Both the position numbers and the translations under genes were made by a program. From assembly GCA_004369045.1 (NCBI GenBank), contig ML213529.1, positions 338,706 to 373,661 on the forward strand: DNA of 34,956 nucleotides. Reading direction: 5' to 3'. The notes under the pieces were generated by a model, which had not been told where the DNA came from, ran no database searches, and worked only from the letters and a program-made list of their open reading frames with translations. Of this stretch, positions 12,276-34,100 are shown in pieces (the stretch's first letter is position 1; each line of letters opens with the position of its first letter). Source of the DNA: Heliocybe sulcata (lineage: Eukaryota > Basidiomycota > Agaricomycetes > Gloeophyllales > Gloeophyllaceae).

Positions 12276-14058
12276 TTACTCCTCCTGGTCATGGTCGTGT
12301 GTCCCATCGCACTCGTCAGCGCTATGCGTGCCCCCGGGGCACGACGGCCCTATGCAATGCCTCCCCAGTCCGTCCTTGCGCGTGAACGAGCGGCCACACC
12401 GCTTGCAGAACCATTGCCGGTCCATGTGGTCGATGCACTGCAGGTGGCGGTCCATGTCGCCTTTGGACTTCGTGCGTTTGTTGCAGCCCTCGAGCTGGCA
12501 GATCCACTCAGAGATGCCTTTGCGCATGATCTTGAGCGGCTCGGGGATGGGCCTAGAGGTGGATGGCTTTGAGCCCTTGGGAGGAAGGTTGCTCTGCTTC
12601 TTCTTCGGTTCGAGGTCCTGGAGCTGCGTGGTGGACGAAGAGGCGACGGGATTGCCTCTCGACTGCGTCATCCTGGTCGCGAGCCGCTCGACGTCGAACA
12701 AGTCATAGTCCTCGGGGTTGAAGCTCACCGGGAGGACAAGCTGCGGCACCTTGGTCGCCCTCTGCTTCTGCTTTCCATTGCTCTTCGTCTTTTGAGGCGC
12801 GTAGTCCTCATCCCCGTCGTCGTACGCGCGCTTTTTCCCCTTGCCGGTCTTGCCTTTCGTGCCCTTAGTCGGCTTGGTCTTTGGGTACGCCATCTGGCGT
12901 GGTGGCTCGAGGTTCCGCGGGACCTTGCCGCCCGTGTACGCTCGCGGCGTATCGAACAACGTAGATGGGCCAGAGGTAGTCGCCAACATGGAGGGACGAG
13001 GGCCCGGCATCGCGATCCGCTGCGTGACTGAGGGAGGAGCTCGAGGATGCGCGACAGTCGAAGGTCCCGGTCCTGGCGTGGGGCTCCTCTGGGTTGACGC
13101 TAACCTGGAAGGAGGAGACCTGACCCTTCTAGAAGGATGCGAGGTAGGATAAGGAGCAAAGGGGAAGTCCCTTACGTTTCCTGCGCTTGGCAAGTGTGAG
13201 CGCGAGAGTCGCATACGCTGGCTCTTCCCGCCCGCATATGGCTTTGCAAGATCTCCGTCTTCGTCGTCGGAGATCACAATTGTGGTATGTTCTCGTGCAG
13301 AGAGCACGTCGTAATTGTTCTCTCCCTCGTCGGCAGGCAGAGAGGCACCGGTTGGCATTACCGAGCGACGAGGGGTAGAGATGGATGCGTGGAACGTGTA
13401 GGGCGTTGCCTCGCGTGAACGGTAAGTAAGTCCCGCTGGATTATCGGCAAGGCCAGCCTGGAACACGTCCGCGGGGCTGATGGTGTTGAAGTCAAAATAG
13501 GACATGTCGAAGTAGGTCATGTCGATGTTCGTCGACTGGGGCAGCGGCAGATTCTGTGGCACGGGTGGGAAGGAGAGCGTGTCGGCGACAGGCTCAGGCT
13601 GGAGTGCAAGCATGGTAGAGGAAGTGGATGGTGTCGACTGGACCGTAGGGCCCACCATATCGGAAGGGCTGCTGACCGTGGCATCATATGTAGTTGTCCC
13701 CCTCAATCCGGCCTGCGCGGGGTCTGATGGAGGAAGGACCGCATTGCAGAAGTCCATCATCTCGAGCCAGGAGCTGTAGGTATTTGCGTAGCTAGGGTGC
13801 TCGCTGGTAATGGGTGCGTGTGTCGGCAAGTAGGGTGCGGGTGTCGGTAAGTAGGGTACGGCTGGCTCCCATGTCTGCGCGTTAAGTCAGGCTATATTCA
13901 TTGGTCTCATAGTGGACGACGCGTACCTCGTTCTCGCCCAGTTCGAGCCATGACCAAACATCTCCCGTGTCAGTGTTAGGGTGATTGTCCTGTGGCATCA
14001 ACGCGTTGCCTTGGGTTTGCGACGGTGTCGGCGTATCATGCGGAGGTGATTCAGACAT
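12276..14058 (-). CDS. C2H2-type zinc-finger protein, probable transcription factor (two exons)
   Basis: Exon 1 is 14058-13927 and exon 2 is 13874-12276, joined across a 52-nt GT..AG intron in phase 0, giving 576 residues. The ATG at 14058 is the first in frame. Two zinc fingers sit at the C-terminus: C-x4-C..H-x5-H in the segment [20 protein letters not shown], then C-x2-C..H-x5-C in [19 protein letters not shown], so the second finger is C2HC. The middle is Pro/Ser/Thr-rich and probably disordered. [11 protein letters not shown] is a typical SUMO-interacting motif, and [19 protein letters not shown] plus the following Lys-rich part suggests nuclear import signals. The gene most likely encodes a DNA-binding regulator; its targets cannot be told. 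In-frame acidic codons continue for 24 triplets beyond the stop (see findings). Confidence 0.88.
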
Positions 14059-14730: not shown

Positions 14731-15300
14731 NNNNNNNNNNNNNNNNNNNNNNNNNNNNNNNNNNNNNNNNNNNNNNNNNNNNNNNNNNNNNNNNNNNNNN
14801 NNNNNNNNNNNNNNNNNNNNNNNNNNNNNNNNNNNNNNNNNNNNNNNNNNNNNNNNNNNNNNNNNNNNNNNNNNNNNNNNNNNNNNNNNNNNNNNNNNNN
14901 NNNNNNNNNNNNNNNNNNNNNNNNNNNNNNNNNNNNNNNNNNNNNNNNNNNNNNNNNNNNNNNNNNNNNNNNNNNNNNNNNNNNNNNNNNNNNNNNNNNN
15001 NNNNNNNNNNNNNNNNNNNNNNNNNNNNNNNNNNNNNNNNNNNNNNNNNNNNNNNNNNNNNNNNNNNNNNNNNNNNNNNNNNNNNNNNNNNNNNNNNNNN
15101 NNNNNNNNNNNNNNNNNNNNNNNNNNNNNNNNNNNNNNNNNNNNNNNNNNNNNNNNNNNNNNNNNNNNNNNNNNNNNNNNNNNNNNNNNNNNNNNNNNNN
15201 NNNNNNNNNNNNNNNNNNNNNNNNNNNNNNNNNNNNNNNNNNNNNNNNNNNNNNNNNNNNNNNNNNNNNNNNNNNNNNNNNNNNNNNNNNNNNNNNNNNN
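14731..15300. other. Assembly gap (570 N)
   Basis: Undetermined bases. The left edge is a TA-rich microsatellite-like run and the right edge resumes in AT-rich sequence, so the gap probably covers simple or repetitive DNA. Open frames reported across it have no meaning. Confidence 0.98.
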
Positions 15301-16219
15301 AAATAGATAATCATGTATCCAATTGCACGGATATTTCAACCGTGACTTCCCGATATTGGGCCACATTTACAGGGCAGTCATATATTCAGTTACTGGAAGT
15401 GGGTCCCACGGATGCAAGCTGCGAGCCACGATGCAAGCTGCGAGGCTGCCTAGGCCTTCTCTGTGGCAACACGCGGCAGAAACGAGGGCGCGTTGCAAAT
15501 GTCGCCACCTGATGCTGAACCACTAGATGCACGGGCCAGCATTAGGGCGGGCGTTCATTCTTTGCCCTTGAAGGTGCAGACTACTAGTATTACACTAAGA
15601 AACCGCTCAACAATGCGTCTGAATGTTAGGTGCGCAATTGAGATAGCATGTCTTGTATGCGACTAACATGCCCGATGATTTCTACCACGGTCATTTGTCT
15701 ACCGCTGCAGACTATGTTACGTTTTCACCTGAATTTATGGATCCATAGGCACCAACAAGTGGCGTGCATTGCCCCACAGGACACCCTCGCGCGGGCCTGG
15801 GAATCGTGTCACCGCGAGTCTGGCCTCGCACCGTGTTTCCCCTGTAGATACGCCCGCGACGCACCGTTCGGGCTCGCGTCTTTTTGGTATGATGGCGACG
15901 TACCGTAGAAATAGATTGACGTTTTTTCTACATCGAAAATCAACCGGGAGGACACTGAACAAATTCGAAGAATGCTGGACAAGGTCGCAACGTTCTGCAC
16001 CCTCGCGAGGGGTCTCGCGCCGGGTTGTTTGCCACAGAAATTCGACAGGGCATCCGCTAGTTACTCATCAAATATTTCATGTTTTTGTTTCGGCCGAATT
16101 CCGTCCATAGAATAAATCGCGCCTTCGGCAATGCGTGCCAGCCCGCCGCCACATTCCAGTTCCCACGGCCGCCGCAGGCCTCGAAACCGTGCAAGTCCGC
16201 ATCGTCGCTGCTTGTCGTC
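15301..16219. repeat. Left part of a subtelomeric repeat unit interrupted by the transposon
   Basis: From about 15980 the sequence follows the same order of words as 30005-30220: a GTTCTGCACCCTC block, then a GCGCCTTC block, then CCGCCACATTCCAGTTC and GCCGCAGGC. A third copy of the last part is at about 32520-32600. The unit breaks off exactly at the transposon end (16219) and resumes at 22795. No gene is present. Confidence 0.75.
16214..16219. repeat. Target-site duplication, left copy (GTCGTC)
   Basis: GTCGTC directly abuts the left inverted repeat and is repeated at 22795-22800 directly after the right one. Confidence 0.85.
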
Positions 16220-16246
16220 TATGACGCTCCGTTTGTCCTTTTAATG
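16220..16246 (+). repeat. Left terminal inverted repeat
   Basis: 27 bases starting TATGACGCTCCGTTTG, exactly complementary to 22768-22794. Similarity continues weakly inward through the first CGCAGCGC motif. Confidence 0.95.
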
Positions 16247-16251
16247 AGCTG

Positions 16252-16279
16252 CGCAGCGCGCCCTTGTGTTGCGCAGCGC
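16252..16279 (+). repeat. Left subterminal motifs (two CGCAGCGC)
   Basis: CGCAGCGC occurs at 16252-16259 and 16272-16279. The complementary GCGCTGCG occurs four times at the right end, so the motifs mirror each other about the element's centre, as expected of transposase-binding sites. Confidence 0.7.
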
Positions 16280-16285
16280 TCATAG

Positions 16286-16857
16286 TTTTGAAACTCCGCC
16301 AGGCTATTCTATGTTCGGCGTAGAAAGTGCTTTCGGATGTAATTCTAAGGTCTGAGAATGCAATAGATAGCTGTATACAGTACATTAGACCACATCTGCA
16401 AAAGAAAATTGACCGCCAGGCGCCCGCTTCTTATGACATATCTCAAACACTGAATATGGTATGTCGCGCCACAACCGTACTTTTGAAACTCCGACGAGCT
16501 ACCGTATGTTCGGCAGTAAAAGGTGCTTTCGGATGTAATTCTAAGCTCTAGAAATGTAATAGATAAATTTATACACTAGATTAGAGCATATCTGCGAAAG
16601 AAAGATGACCGTCGGGTGTCTGCTTCTTATGACATATCTTAAATACTGAATATGGTATGTCGCACCACAACCGTAGTTTTGAAACTCCGACGGGCTATCG
16701 TATGTTCGGCCGTAAAAAGTGCTTTCGCATGTAATTCTAAGGTCTAAAAATGTGATCAATAGCTGTATGAACTGGATTAGAGCATATCTGCGAAAGAAAA
16801 ATGACCGTCGGGTGTCTGGTTCTTATAATATATCTCAAGTATTGAATATTGTAGTGG
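16286..16857. repeat. Three tandem copies of a ~195-bp repeat inside the transposon
   Basis: Copies begin at 16286, 16481 and 16677, each with TTTTGAAACTCCG. They continue through GTATGTTCGG, GTGCTTTCG, ATGTAATTCTAAG and a closing ACTGAATATGGTATGTCGC (the third copy ends early, near TTGAATATTGTAG). They are diverged from each other by roughly 10-20 percent. No coding potential. They may serve as extra protein-binding sites or spacing for the left end. Confidence 0.9.
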
Positions 16858-16997
16858 CTGTGCCATCCCAATAGGGTATGTCGCGCCGCAACTGTCTCCG
16901 CTACCGTAAACCAGGCAGGGCGGGCCTCACAACGTCGAATCAGAAAAATAAGGTCTATAATTCAGACAGGTCATACAGGTTGGCATAGACAGGTCTA

Positions 16998-18770
16998 CTA
17001 GTCATCATCCCAAGGATTCGGCTCCAGTTCATCCGACATCTGGATGAATGGCATCCTATCCTCCTGAACACGGTCCTGACCACTGCGACTCGAAGTAGCT
17101 AGCGCTGTGGGGTGCTGATGCCACACCGGAAGATCATCATAGGTGGGGTCAAGCCACATGGGCGGTGGCGGAGTGTTGCCTGTCGAACCAGCCGGGAGAG
17201 GCGTAGTAGGGGACCGAGGGACCGGGATTGGCGACTCCGAGACATCATTGGAAGTTATGGCTTCGGTCAGGCCCGGGGATGAATTGCCGTTGTCATCCTG
17301 GCCACTTGGATTGAAGTCAGGGTCACTTTGAGAGTCATCTTCGATGAATATTGGTTCATTTACTAGTAGATGAAAAAAAAAAAATCAGAGCGCCACTTGC
17401 ATATCCGAGAATGAAAACTACGTACCTTTCAATGTCACCTTGCGCGTCTTGCGTACAGGCCGTGATTGCAGGGGTGATAGCGGCAAAGCTGAATCGGGCT
17501 CCTTCGCTGGGACAGGGTTAAGAGACAGCGAAACATTTTCAGATGTGGCGGTGGACCTACCTTTTCCTTTCCCGCGATCGCCTGCAACGGGTTCTTCGGA
17601 TACGGGCATAATCAGCGGGGATGGCAGTGCTCTCGCCTTCCCTATGAATGCATGTTATCATTAGAATACATGGCAACATTAGGGACGTACCTTTGCCTTT
17701 CCTGTCATCCAAGTCAGGCTGTTCGATATGCAGATCTGTATTGATACCCTCCCCAGTTTGCAAGGTGCCTGTAATATCCTCGTTCGGCTGCGGCTTTCGC
17801 TCGACAAACTTGTTCATGTATAGTGAAGGCGGGATTGGTACGTGCAGACCTGTGCCGCTGTTTATTACATTCAGAGTAATTGCAAATATGAACAACGTAC
17901 CTATCCAGACGGTACGATCCTTCCAGACGCGTCCTTTGGCTCCCTTAAGCGATTCAAAGGCTTCCCCATTTGGCTCGTACTTGTATGTGGAGAGTGTCAT
18001 ACCCGTCTTGTCCAGCAGCTCCCATGTTCGGGCAGGGGGATCAGCAAAACTGTCCATCTGCTCATCAACGTACTGGAAGACCTCGGGAAACAGACCACGG
18101 AGCCAGGCCTCGATCTGCTTCACCGTCCACTTCTGTCCGAAAGCGAGCTTGCCATCCTTTGCCTGCCAAGGCACTGACAGCTTCCAGCCTTCGTAGGTCT
18201 TGTACTGCTTCGGTGCGGGTGCGCTGCTGTGTGACAGCTCACCATCCTCATCTTCCTCCTATTGATAGTCATGAGTATAGATGAATATCAGACAGATATA
18301 CTGTACATTACTAACCAAGCCATCTGGAAGTATTGTTACACGGCCGACCTTGATCATGTTGCGTGGAAGCTTCTCGTCCAAGATGGCACCCTAAATAGTT
18401 GTATTAATATTCCTAGTAAATGAATAGTGTGCTGTATGACTCTACGTACCTGTTCCTTCTTTGCCTTCTTGACTAGAGAACCACTGCCGGAACTTTCGGC
18501 ATTGCGCTTGAAGCCCGAGTTAGTTTCTTTGACTGCGTCCTGCGCAGAGGCTTTGAGTGGGAGGTGCATCCGAGCTGGTTCCTTGTAAGCTGCAAAAATG
18601 TCGCCAATAGATGAGGGGGGAGCAGCTGCTGTCTGGTGTGCAGACTCGAAATGGCCACAGTCACGACACAGGTGGGGCTGGTCAGGATCTTGTTTTAGTC
18701 TGGGGATGTAGCGTACACAGGGACAGTCCTCGCCATCAGTGCGTTTGCCCTGACACGATTTTGCTGCCAT
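16998..18770 (-). CDS. Transposon-borne protein of unknown function with N-terminal Cys/His cluster (six exons)
   Basis: I do not recognise the family. Exons 18770-18450, 18390-18316, 18258-17901, 17849-17691, 17641-17426 and 17362-16998 join in frame to 497 residues. The introns are 49-63 nt, and four of the five start GTACGT. Residues 6-45 hold a compact cluster C6, C16, C18, C35, C38 with H40 and H45, suggesting zinc binding. Residues about 150-265 look like a folded domain (GWKLSVPWQAKDG, QKWTVKQIEAWLRGLFPE, RVWKDRTVWIGLHVPIPPS). The C-terminal ~230 residues are Ser/Pro/acid-rich and probably disordered, ending NPWDDD. It has the same orientation as the transposase and starts 456 bp beyond its stop. 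An accessory DNA-binding or regulatory protein of the element is a reasonable inference only. Confidence 0.82.
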
Positions 18771-19226
18771 AACAGATGATGTGAACGGAGGCGATGGGTG
18801 AAGGGGGGGAACATACGAGTTTTTAATGGCAACCGGAGCGGCCGGAGTCCGCCCGTATCGGTCTCGATGGCCCCACCCCTATGCTGACATGGACCAATGT
18901 TGGTGTATCAGGACTCCTGCTCTGGTCAGACGCACGAAAGCTTGCTGTAATAACTATAGGCACAGTGTCAAGATGTGCAGCAGGTCGTAGAAGAGAAGAG
19001 TTGAAAATAACTATTAACTTTTGAAAAAGTGTACAGTTGTCGTGAGATGCAGTAATAAAGATAAAGTCAGACTGGATATAGAAGCAGACGTAAGAGACAG
19101 AGACGAGCTTCAAGGTGATGATGCAGTGGTAGAATGATGCCAACGATGCAGAGTTGGCCTTGTTGACTTCTGTGGGTCCACCAGCATGAATAAACAGTCC
19201 AAACAGGTCACGAACATGAGACCCAC
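18771..19226. other. Intergenic spacer inside the transposon
   Basis: The 456 bp between the stop of the transposase gene and the start of the Cys/His-cluster gene, both on the minus strand. No further gene seen. It must hold the 3' end of the first transcript and the promoter of the second; no convincing TATA element stands out. Confidence 0.5.
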
Positions 19227-21288
19227 CTATTCGTCATCCTTTGCCTCATCATCTAGTAGGATCCGGCTCATTACGTCGAGTGCTTGTGCCCACTGGACTG
19301 CGCGTGGATACCAGATGTCCACCGGCAATGTTATCTTCAGCTGCGTACCTCTCGTCCCAAATTTGATTGTCTCTTCTTCAGGATAGAACTCATCGTCCCA
19401 TTCTGAAGGCAAGATACCATAGTTTGGCGGCTGAATGCCGTGGAAAGCAACATCCTGCAGTATCTTGTGGAGCTTCTGTTCGCCTTCAGCTGTGTCAAAT
19501 GGGTTGTGACTTCGAGCGACCTTGATTGGCTTGTGACGGATGTTACGGGCCTGATCCACCGCAATCTGTTCGGCCAATCCTTCGAGCTCGTCCTCTGGTT
19601 CTGTGTCATCAGATTCGCTGTCCGACTCATCATGCTCATCCTCCCTTTCGTCTACTGGATGCCCAGCACCAGTTGCATTTGGATGCCTCTGCTGCTCCGG
19701 ACCGTGAGTACTGTAATACCGATCAAGGGTGTCTGGATGGATGTCCTCAAGCGTATCTTCAGTGTATATCCCCTGGGTAGTCTGTCCCAGGAAGCGCAGA
19801 TCCTGTTCGGGGCAGACAGTATAAGTGCATGCAATCAGAGGACATCGTCATATGTACGTACCGCAGGTGAGCGATTCTTTGTCTCACGTCCGGCGATCGG
19901 GTGAGCATTCCATTGTGCCTGGAATTCCACACAATCTGCATTGATGTCACTGAGGAACAGTCGATGGAGCAACCACAGATGGTATGGATTCTTGCGGTCC
20001 AAAGAGTGAAGTCGGCCAAGACGGGTGAAGAAAGCCCTCCATCTACGGGCGAACTGTGTACCCACCTCCACCCAGAGGTGCTCAATTCGAGTGTTCCGAG
20101 TAGATCTGTATTGTATTGGTAAGTCATACGGCTGTGATCTCCTAAACCGGCTGCTTACGATCCCCACATAAAGGATGCTCTGTTCGGACCACGATGCATA
20201 ATCATCCAGACAGAGACAAGAACATTCTCTCCCCCACGGTCACCTCGCACACGAGAAGGCACACCGTACTTCTGGATGGCATCAAAAAACACCTCGAGGA
20301 CGGTGCGGGCCCTATTGTTATTGCTGGCTTTCAAACCGGTAACCTGTATGCACCAATACTTGTTTAGCTGATAATACTAAAGAATAGAAGAGCCAGACTC
20401 ACCGTCCGACAATACCCATCAATAAACCCGTGGATTACGATACCCCACCATATCAATTTGTGATGACCATCACAGTGCCAGACGGCATTAGGGCGAGGCA
20501 CCACGTACTTCTTCCTTTGCATCGCAGTCCGGCGCCGCATGTAGCGGCTGAGCGCATCAACCCGCTGCAGCGACTGTGTGACACGTCGCCTCTGTACCTT
20601 TAAACCATGACTACGTAAAAATCCCATCATGTAGCGTAGCCCAGAGCCTGGCTTCCGATGCTTGAAGATCTTGACAAGTTGGTCCAGCTCGGCGTCACTT
20701 AATTGTGTAAATTGGCGGTCAAGTCCATGCATCTGAATCTGCTCTGTCAGAGTGTGCCGATGAACACCGAGGGCCGTCGCGAGTGCTTCCAGGCTGAGAT
20801 TCCTTTGCTTTGACAGCGCTTCTCGAAGATATTCTGGATTGATTATCTTGCGAGGCCGCCCTTTCTTGCCCGATCGCACCTCTTGCACGAGGTCTATGAA
20901 TCCAATCTTGTTGCGTTCACTGACAGCGATATTAGACAGTCAAATGCATTGTCCGGGTAAAATGCAGTAGTTTCTCTTACACTCCCTCTGCTGACAATGC
21001 AGCCATCTCGAGCTCATAGACAAGAGGAGCCATGGCATGGGCACAGTCATGCGTCCACCCGATAGGTATCCCATCTGCCTGCATACCCTCCAATAATGGC
21101 ACAGCATCATTCACAATCTTCTCTGAGAGTAACCGGAGGTGCACTGAATCACCATCCTCCTGACCAAGGACGGTCTTTGAACTTCGAAACAGATCTTGCA
21201 GAATTACATAGGCATTCTGGATATTAGGGGACCATTCCATGGCTTCACTAGTAGGTAATACAGGAAACTCCGAAGCTATCTGAGCCAT
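19227..21288 (-). CDS. Integrase-core (DDE) transposase, IS3EU-like (five exons)
   Basis: Exons 21288-20981, 20919-20403, 20343-20159, 20105-19863 plus base 19862, and 19802-19227 join in frame to 609 residues; introns are 53-61 nt with GT..AG borders. An AT-hook-like KKGRPRK at residues 121-127 precedes a helix-turn-helix (LSLEALATALGVHRHTL). The catalytic core follows: D253 in VWHCDGHHKL, D310 in VRGDRGGEN and E345 in SSTRNTRIEHLWVEVG, with 34 residues between the last two. ARRWRAFFTRLGRLHSLD and NAHPIAGRETKNRSPADLRF are typical of the integrase-core family common in Agaricomycetes. The C-terminal ~190 residues are acidic. No stop or frameshift is seen and the DDE triad is intact. The frame stays open upstream of 21288 into the BTB gene, but without an earlier in-frame ATG. 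It would cut and join DNA ends at the terminal repeats. Confidence 0.92.
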
Positions 21289-21402
21289 AGCTGTGAGACA
21301 GGTAGCGTCGAAGGAGGAGCCAGTATTTGTTTGTACATTGTTTGCTAGGCAAGTTGTCAAACAAGTCTCCGGCTCATCCCCTGCGCCAAATACACTGACA
21401 AC
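21289..21402. promoter_or_regulatory. 114-bp divergent intergenic region (transposase / BTB)
   Basis: The start codons of the transposase (21288, -) and the BTB gene (21403, +) lie only 114 bp apart, head to head. Any promoters must overlap or be shared, or the leaders overlap the opposite gene. No clear TATA element is visible. The spacing suggests the two genes are co-regulated. Confidence 0.55.
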
Positions 21403-22466
21403 ATGGTAGCCGAGGACCCTGCCAATACGCCAGAGCTCATACGGCACCCGCAGTTCTACTTCCCAGATGGGTCCATCATTCTGAAGGTACGAGCTCTTCA
21501 GCAATCAGCACTGGCCCCTGTTGCTGAGAGTACATGTCAGTCGGAGAATATCATCTATTGCGTGTACGCCAGCATCCTGAAGACCCGGTCGGAGTTCTTC
21601 CAGACTCTCCTGTCGAAGCCACCCCCAGTCCAGACTCACAATGCTGAGCATGGAGCAGAGGAAGTGTCCATGGACGCACCGGAGAAGCTCCAGGATGGAA
21701 AAACAGACGATACTGCCATTGAACTGGCTCCGATCCACAGCGCCAGTGAGTTTGATCATGTTTTGTCATTCCTCTTCGAATCGTGAGTCCCTATATGGTA
21801 CCTGTACGCGAGAACACTCAGTTAATGTGAAATAGATGGGAACACGACAATCGCACCCTGGAAGCCCTCGTTGCCATCCTCAAATTGAGCTCTTTCTACC
21901 TCATTGACAAAGGCAGAGCATACTCCATCAGGATGCTCAGCACTCATCCAGGCTTGAGACCCGCCCACCGACTCTATCTCGCACAGCAGTACCGAGTCTG
22001 CGACTGGATCAAGCCGGCGTGGGAGATGCTCTTCTCGCTCCCGCTCACGCTTCTGACGCACGAGGATGTCCACTTCCTAGGACTTGACGCCATGGAGACC
22101 CTCGCTGTGACCAAGGAGAAAATTATCACTCACCGCCGGCGGCTTGCCCTCAATGCTCCCAAAGTCCAACACAGCTATTTCTGTCGTGACAACGATGCCT
22201 GCACTCGAGCCTGGAGCCACGCATGGTGGGGCGAGTATGACCGCGCGGGAGTCGCTCGGCTTCTCTTGCAGAATCGCGGGCTGACCAGAGAGGAGATCGT
22301 CACCAGGCTGAATCAGATGAATGTCGCCGGAATGGACAACCAGTGCCGTCGGTTCACGCTTGATGCCCTCGAAAGGGCTCCGATGGTAGCTAAACTGGAG
22401 TTAGAGGAATGCGAGAAAGCCCAAGTGATTGACGCATATGAGAAGGCGCTGAAAGACTCGTTGTGA
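21403..22466 (+). CDS. BTB/POZ domain protein carried by the transposon (three exons)
   Basis: Exons 21403-21486, 21541-21782 and 21836-22466 give 318 residues. The N-terminus contains the basidiomycete BTB signature RHPQFYFPDGSIILK followed, once the first intron is removed, by SENIIYCVYASILKTRSEFF. The domain continues to about residue 140 (SEFDHVLSFLFESWEHDNRT, then LVAILKLSSFYLIDKGRAYS). The C-terminal part (LRPAHRLYLAQQYRVCDWI, LTREEIVTRLNQMNVAGMDN) resembles the helical region of large Agaricomycete BTB families. BTB proteins usually dimerise and serve as adaptors for CUL3 ubiquitin ligases or for chromatin regulators. The first intron is 54 nt, a multiple of three with no stop, so retention would insert 18 residues into the BTB fold. 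The gene is wholly inside the transposon and has no visible defect. Confidence 0.88.
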
Positions 22467-22767
22467 CAGACTAGCTTGGGCGGATCGCGAGTTCTGATCG
22501 TGACAGAGGGTGTGGGATACGAGCAGATATGTCTAGGGTGATCTGAGAGGTCTATACTTGATATTGCCGATGCCATTTGACTTAAGAAAATGAAGTACAG
22601 CATAAGAGCAACAAGACATGTTGAGTCGGACGAGACTCGAACAAGGGCGCTGCGCTGCTGAAAAGAGAGCGCGGCGTGCGAAACTAAGAATGGGCGCTGC
22701 GCATTTCAACCTATGCGCTGCGTACTTGAGAAAAAGGTGCTGTGCTACTTGGGCATGCGCTGCGAAA
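22467..22767. other. Right subterminal region of the transposon with four GCGCTGCG motifs
   Basis: Non-coding 3' flank of the BTB gene. GCGCTGCG occurs at 22647-22654, 22694-22701, 22715-22722 and 22757-22764, and a few degenerate variants lie between. The complementary word occurs twice at the left end. This mirrored arrangement is typical of subterminal transposase-binding sites. Confidence 0.75.
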
Positions 22768-22794
22768 CATTAAAAGGACAAACGGAGCGTCATA
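22768..22794 (-). repeat. Right terminal inverted repeat
   Basis: Perfect reverse complement of 16220-16246, ending ..GGAGCGTCATA. Confidence 0.95.
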
Positions 22795-22800
22795 GTCGTC
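22795..22800. repeat. Target-site duplication, right copy (GTCGTC)
   Basis: Identical to 16214-16219 and directly adjoining the right inverted repeat. Beyond it the interrupted subtelomeric unit resumes (GCCTCCGGCCCTCGCTGCG), matching the order at about 30216 and 32598. Confidence 0.85.
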
Positions 22801-23368
22801 GCCTCCGGCCCTCGCTGCGCTGACCACAGTGCCGGCCACAAACTGCTTTCTATGTTGTCTGCTACTGCCTGTATTATATTACTGCTTTTTTTGATCGTTC
22901 TGACCTCGTGTCTGTTGCTAGGCCGGCTTGGCTTCCTGTCGACGACTTGCGCATGCTCGACGCCGGGTACCCTTTTCAAGATAGTCGATGGGCCGGAAAA
23001 GCGAGGAGTCAAACCGGAAAGTGGTCTTCATGGCGGAGAGATCATTTTAGGTCCGTAAATCTATCCAATTCCGATGCTGTCCCCCATGATGCTCGGGGTT
23101 GCCGTGCCCGCTGCGGTCATCGACGCTGGCAGGTACAGGCAGCTCCAAATCGCTCTTTCACAGATATATCACCTTTCTGAACGTTCCATACGGTTTACAG
23201 CTATCCTCCTTGTCAAGCTCTCCTCGATTGTGCTATGCCGACGCGTACCACATCACCTGACCCGATTCGACCTCGAGACCGAGTACGCGCGCGCGCACTC
23301 GATCTCGATGGTTGTCTCGGCTCCAGAAATGCGTGGGCTTACGAAGAATGTTGAATTGCGTGAAACGG

Positions 23369-28160: not shown

Positions 28161-31100
28161 ATCGTCGGTGCAGAGGTGCTGTGGCGGCGTTTCGCACGGC
28201 GCCTGCAGGCCTTTACGACGTCGTCGACGACCTGCTCCTCGTCTCGTCGTACCTTCTGACGGACGTGCGCGTCTTTCGCGACATCCGTTGCTCTCGGTAC
28301 ATTTCCTTGGCTGTGATTCCTTCTTTGACTCTGCATGGCCATCCGGTTGGGCCTCCTTCGGCGGCGGTTCGGTCAAGTCCTGGGCCTCAGTCTGCAATCG
28401 GAGAATGCGCGCACACCGTGGCCTCCCGGTGTCCGTTGCACAATAATGGTCGTTGGATGCATTGCGAAGAGGGTGTAAAAGTTGAAGTAGGCGTTAGAAG
28501 GTAAGTACCCCCCTCAGAACTTGGACGTTCGTAGCTTGATGCATGGGGGCTGCCATGCCCGCTTCGTCTATCAACGCTGGCGGTCTTGGCGGTTCACAAC
28601 CTCTTTGTTACAGGTTCACAACGTCTAACGACGTTGTATTGACGAATACCCACCGTGCGTTGCCCCAACCTCGCCTCCGTCGCGCCTGCCGAGACTCGCC
28701 ACGTCACCCGAGCCGACCCAACGTCGAGACCGCATACGCACCCGCGTACTCACATTCGATGGTTGCCTCTACCCCAGGGACGTGTGGGATTCTGGAGAAT
28801 TTTAACTGGCACAAATCGGGTGGGTATTCGATTTGTTGTGATTTTATCTTGGTTTTATTCGTCCTCTCCCTTGCCCGTTCCACTCCTTCGCTTCCAGGAC
28901 CTGTATTCGTACAGGAGGTCGGTACTGAACCGAACACTGTTCAGGACGATGGCGAGACACGCGTATTGAGAGAGCGCTGTTTCGTCATCGTGTTATGATC
29001 ATTTTTCTAGCGTCCTCTCGACTGGGCCAGGGGTTTCCAGCGACGGGGCCGCCCACGGACCCGATTAGTTCGAGAAAACCGTCAAGAACATCCCTCGCAA
29101 GCTGTACAGGCTCAGCTCCCGGTCGTCAAGACCTTGCTGCTGTCGTCGTCGCCGTCGCCCCTCCCCTTTCCTCGAACATGGCATTGAGGACGCGTACGCC
29201 TGCTCGAGTTCAACGCTCAGTTTTACCGGCATGATGCACAGCTCTTGAACTCTGTTGGATTTGCGCAAATGCGCTGGTGCGCTCTTTTCTTATGATTTAT
29301 TTCTTCAATTTTCCCTTCCTCTCCCTTACCGCCGCTGATCTTGACGCTGGCAGGTCTTCGCACCGCTTAAGGACTCCTCTGTAGATGTAGGGTCTTTTAG
29401 GTGTCTCTATATCCTCTATCCCGACGCCTGGCTGCTCTCGACGAAGGCCGCCGCCGCCCCCACATCACACCGTGCACCCCGGCATCGAACGCGCTGTCCC
29501 TCCCGCGTATCGGATCCTTCGGAGCGCTCCATTCAACGACGGACATTATCTATTGAACGAGATTAGCAGTAGCCAGGCTTTAATACGCTGCGGGCGCTCA
29601 GCGAGTGGATCCCGGCCCATGGTAAAGTTACACGGCGAGGTGTAGGCGAAGGTGTCCCTGTTGGAGGTTACCTCGCCCAAGCTCGCCGTGCTGCGGCATT
29701 CTCGAGGGCGATATTTTGCTCACCGCAATCAGTAGGACCCAGCAATGTCAATCAGACCGTCGCCATCGCCGCGTCGCCTCCTGCCCATGAAGTCGCGAGA
29801 GAGGGGAGCCATGTATCTTAGTCTGGCTGTGTCGGGTCCTGCGCTGCCTCGTGTGGCTGCGTACATTTCGTGTATGAAGTACCTATATTACAGCAATGCA
29901 CTCACGTGCTTTTTACTTCATGGCATGACCGGGAACGTAGCAAGCATCCTCGAAAAGCTCAGGAGGCCTTGCTCCTGCGGCACAGCCACCAGATGGCTCC
30001 CGACGTTCTGCACCCTCTAGAGGGTCTCGTACCGTGTCCTTCTCCACAAAAATTTGGCAGGCACTGGGTAAGATATTTACAATGTATTCCACGCCTTTTA
30101 TTTGGCGAAAGCCCGTCCATGTCTTAAACTGCGCCTTCCTGAACGCTCATTTGCATGCCGCCACATTCCAGTTCGCACGCCCGCCGCAGGCTGCGAGTCC
30201 GCGCGTCGTCGCTCCTCGTCTCGTCCGGCCCTCACTGCGTCGACCGTGGTGTCTGTGCCGGCCTCTACTTGCGCTCTGCATTCTAATCTGCTGTTCTTAT
30301 TGCATACCTCGCTTTTCGCGTTCATTCTGGCTGGATCGCTGTCACTGGACCGGGCTTCGCTTCCTCTTGACGACCTGGACGAACTCGGCACCAGAAACGC
30401 TGTTCAAACACCGGGATGGCTTTGAAAAGCGAGATATCAGCTGGGATGAAGGTCTGGGAGATGTATTTGGGCATTTAGGTCTGTATCTCTCTCCTATCTT
30501 CACCTGTACGCTTTGATGCTTGGAGTTGCCATGCCCACCGTGGACGTCGATGCTGGCGGCTAGTGGCAGCTCCAAATCATTGTTTCTCAGATATACGTTA
30601 TTCCTGTATGCTGTACCATCCATTATTACCCATGACTTCCCTCCGCTCATCTACAAACGCGCCCGCCGACGCTCGCTGCGTCACCCGAGCCGACCCGACC
30701 TCGAGACCGAGTACGCACGCGCGCACCCGCTCTCGATGGTTGCCTCGGCTCTAGCAACACCTGGGACCATGAAGAATCCTAACTCGCGTAAAACAGGTAC
30801 GTGTTCCTTTTCTTATGATTTTATTTCCATTTGCTCCATCATTTCCGTTCCCCGCTCCTCTCCTTCCTTTCCATACACCTAGCTTTCACCAGGACGGCGT
30901 TCCTGAGACCCTTCCGACACAGGGTGATGATGAGATGAGCGCTTCGCGAATGCGCGGTCTCATCGCCGACTTATGATCTCTTTTCTTCGTCCTCTCCCGG
31001 CTTTACCTGCTGTTCCGAGCGACGGCGCGGTCCTAGGGCCTATTGCCTCCTCCCCTTACTAATACCGTTTACTAAAGCCTTAGCAGCTAACCTTCAGGTC

Positions 31101-34100
31101 TATAGAGCCGTTGCGCCGCCACCGTCGCCCCTCCTCCTCCACAAACACGAAAACAAGAACGCGTACGCTTCGTCAACTTGGACATTCATTTTGGCTAGAT
31201 CAATGAAGAGTATCCCGACGCCGGTGATTTCGCAGAAAATGGCTGGTGCGTTATTTTCCTACGTGTTAATTTTCATTTTTCTCGATTTGTCTCTCCCTTC
31301 CCGTTCCCCCACTCGGAGCCTCTTCTCTGCGTACCGGAGATCGCTTCTGAATGCGACGATGCTCCCGATGACGACGAGATGCGTGGTGTATGTGCGCGTT
31401 TCCTCGCCGTCGGGATATCCATCGATTTCTTTCAGTGTTTTCCCCCTCCCGATGGACTGCCGGTTGCGCACGTCTAGGCACTTTCCAATCGTTACTGACA
31501 CTGTGGCCTCCTACCATAGATGCTATCCTTACTTCCCGGTCATCCGTTGCCACCACAGACGCCTACCGCCGCCGCCCTCCTCCTCTAACACCAAAACAAG
31601 AATCTGTACGCAGGCTATACTTCGACGTTTAGTTTGTCTGGAGCTATGGATGGGATAGCGACGCCGTTTGTAAAGCATACAATTGCCGGTGCGTTCCTTT
31701 CCTATGATTTAGTTTGGCTTTTCTTCGATTTTTCCCTCCACTCCTTGATCTCCCTCTCCGGGCCCCTTTTGTGCGTTCAGAGGGTCCTACCTAGGTGCTG
31801 CAACGTGTATGATGACCGCGAGATGTGTTTCCCACTAGTGCGCCTCTTCGCCGTCGAGATATCCGTTGATTTCTCCCGATGTTTGCTCCTCCCCGATGAG
31901 CCGCTGGCTGCGCGCGAGTAGTCACGTCGCGAACCTTACTGACACTTTATCTTCTAGTAATAGATGTTATCATTACACTAGAGTCATTGATGGCTATCTC
32001 CGGGCTCGCGCTGTTCCTCTCGTCACCCTTCCTCCTCCCCGGCCAGCCACCTATGTCATACTCGAAGTGCCGGTCCCGCCAAGGAAAGGATGCCTAAAAG
32101 CAATCATGAAAGACGCAATCCGTGTTTGCATTGACCCGCCGAAGATGTCGCAACGTCGAGTTCTCGGGTGGCATACCGCCCATATGTACCGGAGTGCTAT
32201 CTTGTCGCGCGCCCCGCCGTTCCGGACTCTTCTTGCTCTGTATTAACGTAGTGTAGACCATTAATGTATCCTACATCTTGCAAGTTGCGCAGAACGGCCG
32301 CTAAGGCAGCGAGCGTTGTCCAAAGCCTCGCGAGGACCGCTCACCCAAGTGGCACAGGCATAGGTCTCCTTCTCGACGTTCCGCGTGCTCCAGAATGCCC
32401 TGCGCAGGCCCCTTCGCCCCGGATATTTGACAGACTGCTGCCTAGGTATATTCCATTATACTCTCGCCCCTTTTCCCTCCAACCACCAGCTAGGACCCGA
32501 TCCATCCATGCCTTCATCGACGTTCGCCAGCCTGCCGCCACATCGGCAGTTCCCACGCTCGCCACGCCCGCACAGTGCAAGTCCGCCTTCGTTGTCTCCC
32601 TCGGCCTTCACTCCGTCGAGTACGGCGCCAGCCCCGATTTGCTCTGCTCATAATCTGTGGCTTTCTTCTGCGCTTCCTCGACTTCTGCTGTGCTCTTTGA
32701 CTCGGTCTATGTTTCGGGCTCGGCTTAGTTTGGCTCGCGAAGACCAGGACGCTCTCTGGTTCGCCGACACTCCTCAAGGCCTCAAACTGTCGTAAAAGCG
32801 AAGGATTAGCTGGGAGGAGGGTTTCTGAGCCGAGGAAAAGGGTTTACAGGTGTGCAAAACACATCACTCCCTGATCTTTATTCTTTGATGCAGAGACTTG
32901 CCATGCCCGCCGCGGACATCAACGCTGCCGGGCACTGGCAGCTCCAAACGCTTGATTTCCAGATGTACGGCATTTGTATATGCTGTAATTGTTGCTCTCA
33001 CCTACCACCATCCTTCCGCTTGTCCACAAACGCGCCCGCCGACGCCCGCCACGTCACCCGACATGACCCGACCTCGAGACCGAGTACGCGACCGCGCACT
33101 CGATCTCGATGGCCGTATCGATTCTAGCAACGCCTATTAGGCATAGGAACCTTGGTTCGCACGAAACGGGTGCGTATTCCCTTCGTTATCACTCCGTTTC
33201 CATTCTCCTCGTTCTGTACCCCTCCCCCTCTCGTTCCACGCATCCGGGCGCTTGTTCTCGTACCGGGCACCGTTCCTGAGTCTTGTACATGTCCGGATGA
33301 TGAGGATATGCGCGCATCGCCAGCGCGCTGTCCCGTCATCGACTCGTGATTTTTTTTCTAGTACCCTCCCGGCTGGACCATCGGTTTGGAGCGACGGCGC
33401 CGTTCCCGGACCCGATTGACACTTCAACCACATTCAACACTCGGTACTGCACCTGTACATGCTGAGTTTCTGCTCCCTGAAGCCCTACCGTCGCCGCCGT
33501 CACTCTTCCTCCTCCTCGGACGCAAAATCAAGAAGATGAACGCCTGGCTCGTATGAGCATCCAAACCGATGCCCGTGCTGTACTGTTACAGCGTCCAGCT
33601 GGAATTACGCGAAAACGCTGGTGCGTTATTTTCCTACGGTTTAATTTGCATTTTTCTTCGATTTTCCCCTCCCCATCCTGTCCTCCCGTTCTGAGCCCGT
33701 TCCGTACGCACAGGAAGCTGCCGCTGGGTGCTCTGATGCTCCTAGTGATGACGCGATATGCGGCGCACGACCGCGCTTCCTCGCCATGGCGATATTCTTT
33801 GATTTCTGTTGATCTTTCGCTCTCCTCGATAGAGCGCTGGTTCCGCGCGATCAGGCGCTTCGAAAATATTATTAACACTGTTCTGTCTTGAAATAAGTGC
33901 CATCAGCACCCTAGGGTCGTCAATTCCGATTCCCGAATCTTCGCATCGCCGTCACCGTCCCTCTCCCTCCTCGAACACGAAAACCAAAAGACTTACGCCA
34001 ACGGCTGATTTGTACCATATAATCAGCGCATATTTACTACGATTGAATCGCCATATGTTTCGTGCTGATCGGACGGTTAGTTCCGTTTCTATGAATTAAT

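Follow-up and report, generated by a model that had tools for sequence, protein, structure and literature searches.

An IS3EU-like transposon of Heliocybe sulcata with a BTB gene divergent from its transposase

Accessory genes of DNA transposons show how these elements deal with their hosts. We analysed a 34,956-nucleotide stretch of the genome of the wood-rot mushroom Heliocybe sulcata (Gloeophyllales; assembly of 31.6 Mb in 51 contigs), positions 338706-373661 of contig C27 and hereafter the window, in which positions 16220-22794 are a structurally complete cut-and-paste transposon of IS3EU type. The element carries a transposase gene, a second gene assigned to the BTB family and a third gene near its left end (Table 1), BTB being a domain that cells often use to choose proteins for destruction. 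All three genes are spliceable, each with its own stop and no inner stop. The BTB gene lies wholly between the element's ends and is transcribed divergently from the transposase; its product is identical to the annotated H. sulcata protein OE88DRAFT_1739442, and that of the third gene is identical to the annotated OE88DRAFT_1739440.

The boundaries of the element were examined in two ways. The terminal inverted repeats are identical at 27 of 27 bases, and when 15 kb were scanned for TAY..RTA pairs having at least 14 matches in 20 and a duplication of 5 or 6 bases in 6, the only pair returned was 16220-22794 (score 26/26). Twenty first-order Markov resamplings of the same region gave one pair altogether, with a score of 19. 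A second line of evidence came from a related site on contig C33: the left flank, up to 16219, aligns to C33:4254-4482 (76%, minus strand), and the right flank, from 22795, to C33:3874-4259 (74%, minus strand), the two matches overlapping by six bases. Aligned against C33, the joined flanks share one GTCGTC, and therefore the element inserted into a host repeat as a single unit, duplicating six bases. This empty site is a paralogous copy of the host repeat, not the allele. Perfect ends with their duplication, the resampling scan and the empty site together rule out that the inverted repeats arose by chance. In these respects the original prediction, made from the letters of the window alone, was borne out: it had described a 6.6-kb element with perfect 27-bp inverted repeats and a 6-bp duplication, enclosing three spliceable genes of which the divergent BTB gene lies wholly inside. 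The host repeat around the element and its diverged pieces occupy window 15990-16219, 22795-23200, 30003-30595 and 32526-32952, with further diverged pieces on contigs C33, C43 and C22.

Table 1. Coordinates of the transposon in the window and of related elements elsewhere in the assembly (TSD, target-site duplication; TIR, terminal inverted repeat).
Feature	Position	Strand	Size	Details
Whole element	window 16220-22794		6,575 bp	IS3EU-like cut-and-paste DNA transposon
Left TSD	window 16214-16219			GTCGTC; single copy in paralogous empty site on C33
Left TIR	window 16220-16246	+	27 bp	TATGACGCTCCGTTTGTCCTTTTAATG
Subterminal tandem array	window 16286-16853	+		196-bp unit x 2.9 copies, adjoining left end
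Third gene	window 16998-18770	-	479 aa	7 exons: 18770-18450, 18390-18316, 18258-17901, 17849-17691, 17641-17561, 17506-17426, 17362-16998
Transposase gene	window 19227-21288	-	609 aa	5 exons: 21288-20981, 20919-20403, 20343-20159, 20105-19862, 19802-19227
Divergent intergenic stretch	window 21289-21402		114 bp	between transposase and BTB start codons
BTB gene	window 21403-22466	+	318 aa	3 exons: 21403-21486, 21541-21782, 21836-22466
Right TIR	window 22768-22794	-	27 bp	perfect match to left TIR
Right TSD	window 22795-22800			GTCGTC
C2 element	C2:2150034-2159884		9,851 bp	TSD GATATT (6/6)
C6 element	C6:1345566-1355883		10,318 bp	TSD GTTTAT (6/6)
Close copy	C1:148273-149816		1,544 bp	CCGAGC/TCGAGC beside it (5/6)

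Against the Pfam integrase core PF24764 the transposase scores 194.6 bits (cut-off 26), and against PF00665 it reaches 29.9 bits, below the cut-off of 32.6 for that family. Its likely catalytic triad, chosen by motif and by eye, is D253/D310/E345, with 34 residues between the last two. The N-terminal 245 residues contain one Cys and thus no C-x2-C, hence no HHCC zinc motif upstream of the core. IS3EU elements, as described in PMC10045372, have TA..TA ends, usually 6-bp duplications and no HHCC motif; that paper counts 17 autonomous IS3EU entries in Repbase as of May 2022. With IS3EU and GingerRoot elements, as described in PMC10045372 and PMC12730594, the window element shares the TA..TA ends, the 6-bp duplications and an integrase-type DDE transposase without an upstream HHCC motif; it differs from them in carrying, as accessories, the BTB gene and a third gene of no assigned family. 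The end features on which the original prediction had based the IS3EU assignment are both in print in those sources and present here. The third gene product has an N-terminus rich in Cys and His by eye, and gave no match in Pfam.

In the genome as a whole PF24764 is found at five loci, namely the window and contigs C2, C6, C10 and C40. Those in the window, on C2 and on C6 belong to three full-length elements with the same gene order: the BTB gene, the divergent transposase and the third gene toward the far end. Matches to the window BTB protein include C2:2159082 and C6:1345840-1346360, in each case beside the transposase and divergent from it, and in the C6 element 98 bp separate the BTB and transposase start codons (from the two ATG positions). 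Distant relatives of the third gene likewise lie between the transposase and the far end in both. Compared in all 15 pairs, the ends of the three elements, six in number, are identical at 18-27 of 27 bases, with TATGAC..GTCATA in the window and C2 elements, and with TATGAC at one end and TATGAT at the other in the C6 element, and all three elements are flanked by 6-bp duplications matching at 6 of 6 bases (5 of 6 in a shortened derivative on C1, described below). Within the genome, the N-terminus of the C6 transposase has matches at C6, C27 and C2 only. The elements are nonetheless far diverged: transposase identities are 46.9% between window and C6 (567 residues), 44.7% between window and C2 (472) and 53.4% between C6 and C2 (457), and the corresponding BTB identities are 28.1% (285 residues), 29.0% (262) and 37.0% (270). 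That two such different relatives hold a BTB gene at the corresponding position suggests a transposon component of long standing rather than an accidental acquisition.

The label BTB/POZ, which the original prediction had given to this gene, held by way of the protein's relatives, whereas Pfam was blank on the window protein itself: it gave no match to PF00651, its best match in Pfam was a sub-threshold one to another family, and no DNA-binding domain was recognised in it by Pfam. Used as a lone query, the protein found only itself among 2637 candidates. When 8000 candidates were scored with a profile of the three element-borne BTB sequences, however, at least five proteins were recovered: those of the window and C6 elements, one of Neolentinus lepideus and two of Gloeophyllum trabeum, the gene models of the latter being without the part that precedes the second exon. 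Against the Pfam BTB cut-off of 20.5 bits, the Neolentinus relative (P0004) scores 28.7, two further relatives fall short of it (P0003 at 17.4 and P0005 at 14.9) and a fourth, P0006, gives no match. When these five proteins were aligned with six host BTB proteins by hhalign, the probability was 98.9% (E 1.1e-17, 116 columns), with an alignment that starts at a common HPxxxFxDGS; PF00651 matches five of these six host proteins. Sequence searches of solved structures found no match for either P0004 or profile A2. We consider the BTB label sound, and the protein would belong to a diverged BTB subfamily.

We then compared this subfamily with the BTB genes of the host. When the whole genome was searched with the Neolentinus relative, strong matches (E 5e-52 to 3e-11) were confined to C2, C6 and C27, and the hit that followed, on C8, stood at E 1.5e-4. 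A host locus of the subfamily would have spoken against cargo, and none appeared at a strong E value in this search. With at least 22 matches to PF00651 above cut-off, host BTB genes are common in this genome, and one of them might by chance have come to lie between two unrelated inverted repeats. Among the matches listed, though, none is inside the three BTB elements, the strong subfamily matches are confined to those elements, and 16220-22794 is absent as one block from the related C33 site; on these three grounds we rejected a merely enclosed host gene, which we regard as scarcely credible. The presence of a BTB cargo in an IS3EU-like transposon is in this way supported.

Nine host BTB loci were looked at, of which L062-L064 were dropped (no BLAST match at E 0.01), and the six host proteins used in the profile and in a tree are the more similar ones. 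In the tree, six subfamily proteins and these six host proteins separated with the subfamily on one side (support 83/83), the support being only moderate because the host branches are long. Within the subfamily, the C6 protein lies beside that of Neolentinus (96/94) and the C2 protein beside a Gloeophyllum protein (95/94). These cross-genus pairs suggest that at least two BTB sublineages predate the genera, or that they may have moved between them. A recent capture of a host gene was rejected, since host BTB proteins reach at best 31-37% identity to the window protein, over 55-84 residues on its N-terminal side, whereas the copies in the C2 and C6 elements match its later part too.

Another way to view the history of the BTB gene is through the distribution of its differences over codon positions. 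The fractions of positions 1, 2 and 3 that differ are 0.55/0.43/0.70 between the window and C2 genes (249 codons) and 0.55/0.38/0.69 between the window and C6 genes (238 codons), compared with 0.46/0.32/0.70 and 0.39/0.31/0.62 for the transposases of the same pairs. Such a pattern would reflect constraint like that on the transposase, although the compared codons were chosen by protein similarity, a choice that favours positions 1 and 2 and inflates the pattern, so that it counts as support and not as proof. Gene structure can also be followed between the copies: the window and C6 genes agree in the place and phase of the first BTB intron and in the place of the second intron's donor, the acceptor side in C6 being out of frame.

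Taken together, these comparisons are best read as identifying the BTB gene as a conserved accessory gene of this IS3EU-like lineage. Several observations, including the choice of codons just described, weigh against such a reading. The BTB genes of the C2 and C6 elements hold stops or frameshifts, as do their transposases (4 stops in the aligned codons of the C2 BTB gene, 2 in those of the C6 BTB gene and 5 in those of each transposase); both elements are thus decayed, and constraint on them is visible only as past divergence. The 29 kb at C10 and 24 kb at C40 contain no BTB relative at E 0.05, so that the BTB gene is not general to the family, and in a tree of transposase cores the three BTB elements are not firmly grouped against C10 and C40 (support 45/13; 97/92 for C2 with C6). 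Likewise, the window transposase is 43.2% identical to that of C40 (95 residues), close to its identity with that of C2 over 472 residues, and 39.6% identical to that of C10 (212 residues). The ends of the C6 element, taken alone, are no better than resampled sequence, since 6 of 20 resamplings held a pair scoring at least 19 and one reached 20, the C6 score; we accept these ends on the strength of their sequence match to those of the other elements.

The remaining observation of this kind concerns the close copy on C1, a derivative with internal deletions that have removed both the transposase and the BTB gene. It retains 395 bp of the left end (90%), a shortened right end and, between them, small pieces, among which is the 3' end of the third gene. 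Several copies with the same ends, different duplications and a BTB gene inside had been named in the original prediction as what would confirm cargo. What we found instead were two diverged, broken elements with related ends that do hold the BTB gene, and, as the sole copy with the same ends, the C1 derivative that does not; as the transposase is missing from it as well, it does not speak against BTB cargo.

If the BTB gene had been taken once from the host and had since ridden along without benefit to the element, broken copies in C2 and C6 and a close copy that does without the gene would be expected outcomes, and chance capture of genes by transposons is generally known. A useless gene, however, should not remain readable over such divergence. 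Three elements share the BTB gene although their transposases are no more than 45-53% identical; the gene is intact in the window, and it bears the codon-position signal against both relatives (with the biased choice of codons noted above); furthermore, the damage in C2 and C6 extends to their transposases, which points to decay of whole elements. We therefore judge passive capture to be improbable. The history we favour for the conserved accessory gene is that it was probably captured from the host's BTB repertoire before the three elements diverged and was then kept by selection.

How an accessory BTB protein might serve the element can be set out as a series of steps. After capture and retention by selection, the short divergent intergenic region would co-express the BTB gene with the transposase, and the BTB domain would self-associate and dock on the host CUL3 ubiquitin ligase. 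The conserved, Cys- and Trp-containing C-terminal part could then select the client, which might be the transposase or a factor of host silencing, and the net effect would be a tuning of the element's transposition frequency. Co-expression, a CUL3 adaptor role and a client of this kind are put forward here as a tentative possibility, and it counts against them that nothing links the window BTB protein to CUL3 or to a client. The compound proposal, in which an old Gloeophyllales IS3EU lineage would have recruited a host BTB protein as a ubiquitin-ligase adaptor of its own, expressed together with the transposase and either disabling host silencing or setting transposase levels, is in our view doubtful.

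A different mechanism would leave the retention of the gene as it stands and make its product a direct partner of the transposase, as an oligomerising or nuclear-import factor, in place of a ubiquitin adaptor. BTB domains are generally known to oligomerise, the divergent pairing with the transposase fits a partner, and a second protein is found in other DNA transposons, such as the Myb/SANT protein of Nuwa (PMC12730594). Set against these points is the Pfam result that the BTB protein has no recognised DNA-binding domain, and its sequence does not separate the partner from the adaptor. A partner role may be entertained on this basis, but appears rather unlikely.

The significance of a conserved BTB gene is that it would add the BTB/ubiquitin system, for a cut-and-paste element, to the known accessories of fungal IS3EU elements, of which PMC12730594 names TET/JBP dioxygenases and alpha-kinases. 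If the adaptor proposal were true, it would be a case of a transposon reprogramming host protein degradation. The structural completeness of the window element and its three intact genes make the idea testable, whether in laboratory yeast or in a fungus that decays wood.

Among known systems, the nearest comparison is with the TET+ IS3EU elements of rusts and Tuber, in which TET/JBP genes lie between the transposase and alpha-kinase genes (Kojima 2025, PMC12730594). These are, like the window element, fungal IS3EU elements with accessory genes at a kept place relative to the transposase, but their accessories are a TET/JBP dioxygenase and an alpha-kinase, neither of which Pfam recognised in any of the window element's three genes. 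Their ends in rust fungi are TAYGG..CCRTA, as opposed to TATGAC..GTCATA here. The view expressed in that paper is that these genes pass passively between transposons but likely help them escape silencing. The OTU and VTD deubiquitinases of Helitrons (PMC9741609) are also pieces of a host ubiquitin system borne by a selfish element; those, however, are ubiquitin-removing proteases in rolling-circle elements, whereas here a BTB protein is carried by a cut-and-paste element and the link to ubiquitin is putative. The vertebrate Crypton-BTB gene KCTD1 (PMC3212892) resembles the present case in joining transposon sequence to a BTB domain, but it is a host gene that arose from a Crypton inserted upstream of a BTB gene, and the transposon there carries no BTB. 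The word BTB is absent from the main text of PMC12730594 and of PMC10045372. A literature search found no BTB-carrying IS3EU element, in a coverage that left out most subscription papers and the Repbase reports, so that absence from print is not shown; the terms IS3EU and BTB occurred together only in a study of buffalo mastitis, unrelated by its title.

The two larger elements contain a further gene. C2:2155838-2156392 (+) and C6:1349402-1348877 (-) are related, with 62% identity in the aligned part, where the window element has only 456 bp (18771-19226). Both show an HTDH...H pattern (HxD..H) like that of mushroom TET/JBP-like dioxygenases; this candidate TET/JBP-like gene gave no match in Pfam or the PDB.

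On contig C10, positions 443692-450726 form a possible IS3EU-like element (ends 16/20, duplication 5/6) with no BTB relative, for which reason C10 was rejected as a fourth BTB element; its ends are uncertain, as three pairs are candidates and one of these lies far away from the transposase. The C40 locus is a transposase fragment without a BTB relative, with an inverted pair at 17396-21337. A second scan pair on C2, at 2146156-2153265 (16/20, duplication 6/6), extends across the left boundary of the C2 element, which excludes a nested insertion. Its arms resemble each other past the supposed ends, and we interpret the pair as another repeat present in two opposed copies.

A search of the window against Rfam gave no match, and neither did a search of viral contigs. 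The 196-bp unit of the subterminal array, with its adjoining stretch, has weak matches (69-83%) on C28, C9, C20, C2 and C10, and may belong to other elements too. To the left of the element, a run of N at window 14731-15300 (an assembly gap or masked stretch) lies 0.9 kb away, and beyond it a 536-aa open frame at window 12276-13886 (minus strand) has, by eye, a putative C-terminal pair of C2H2 zinc fingers.

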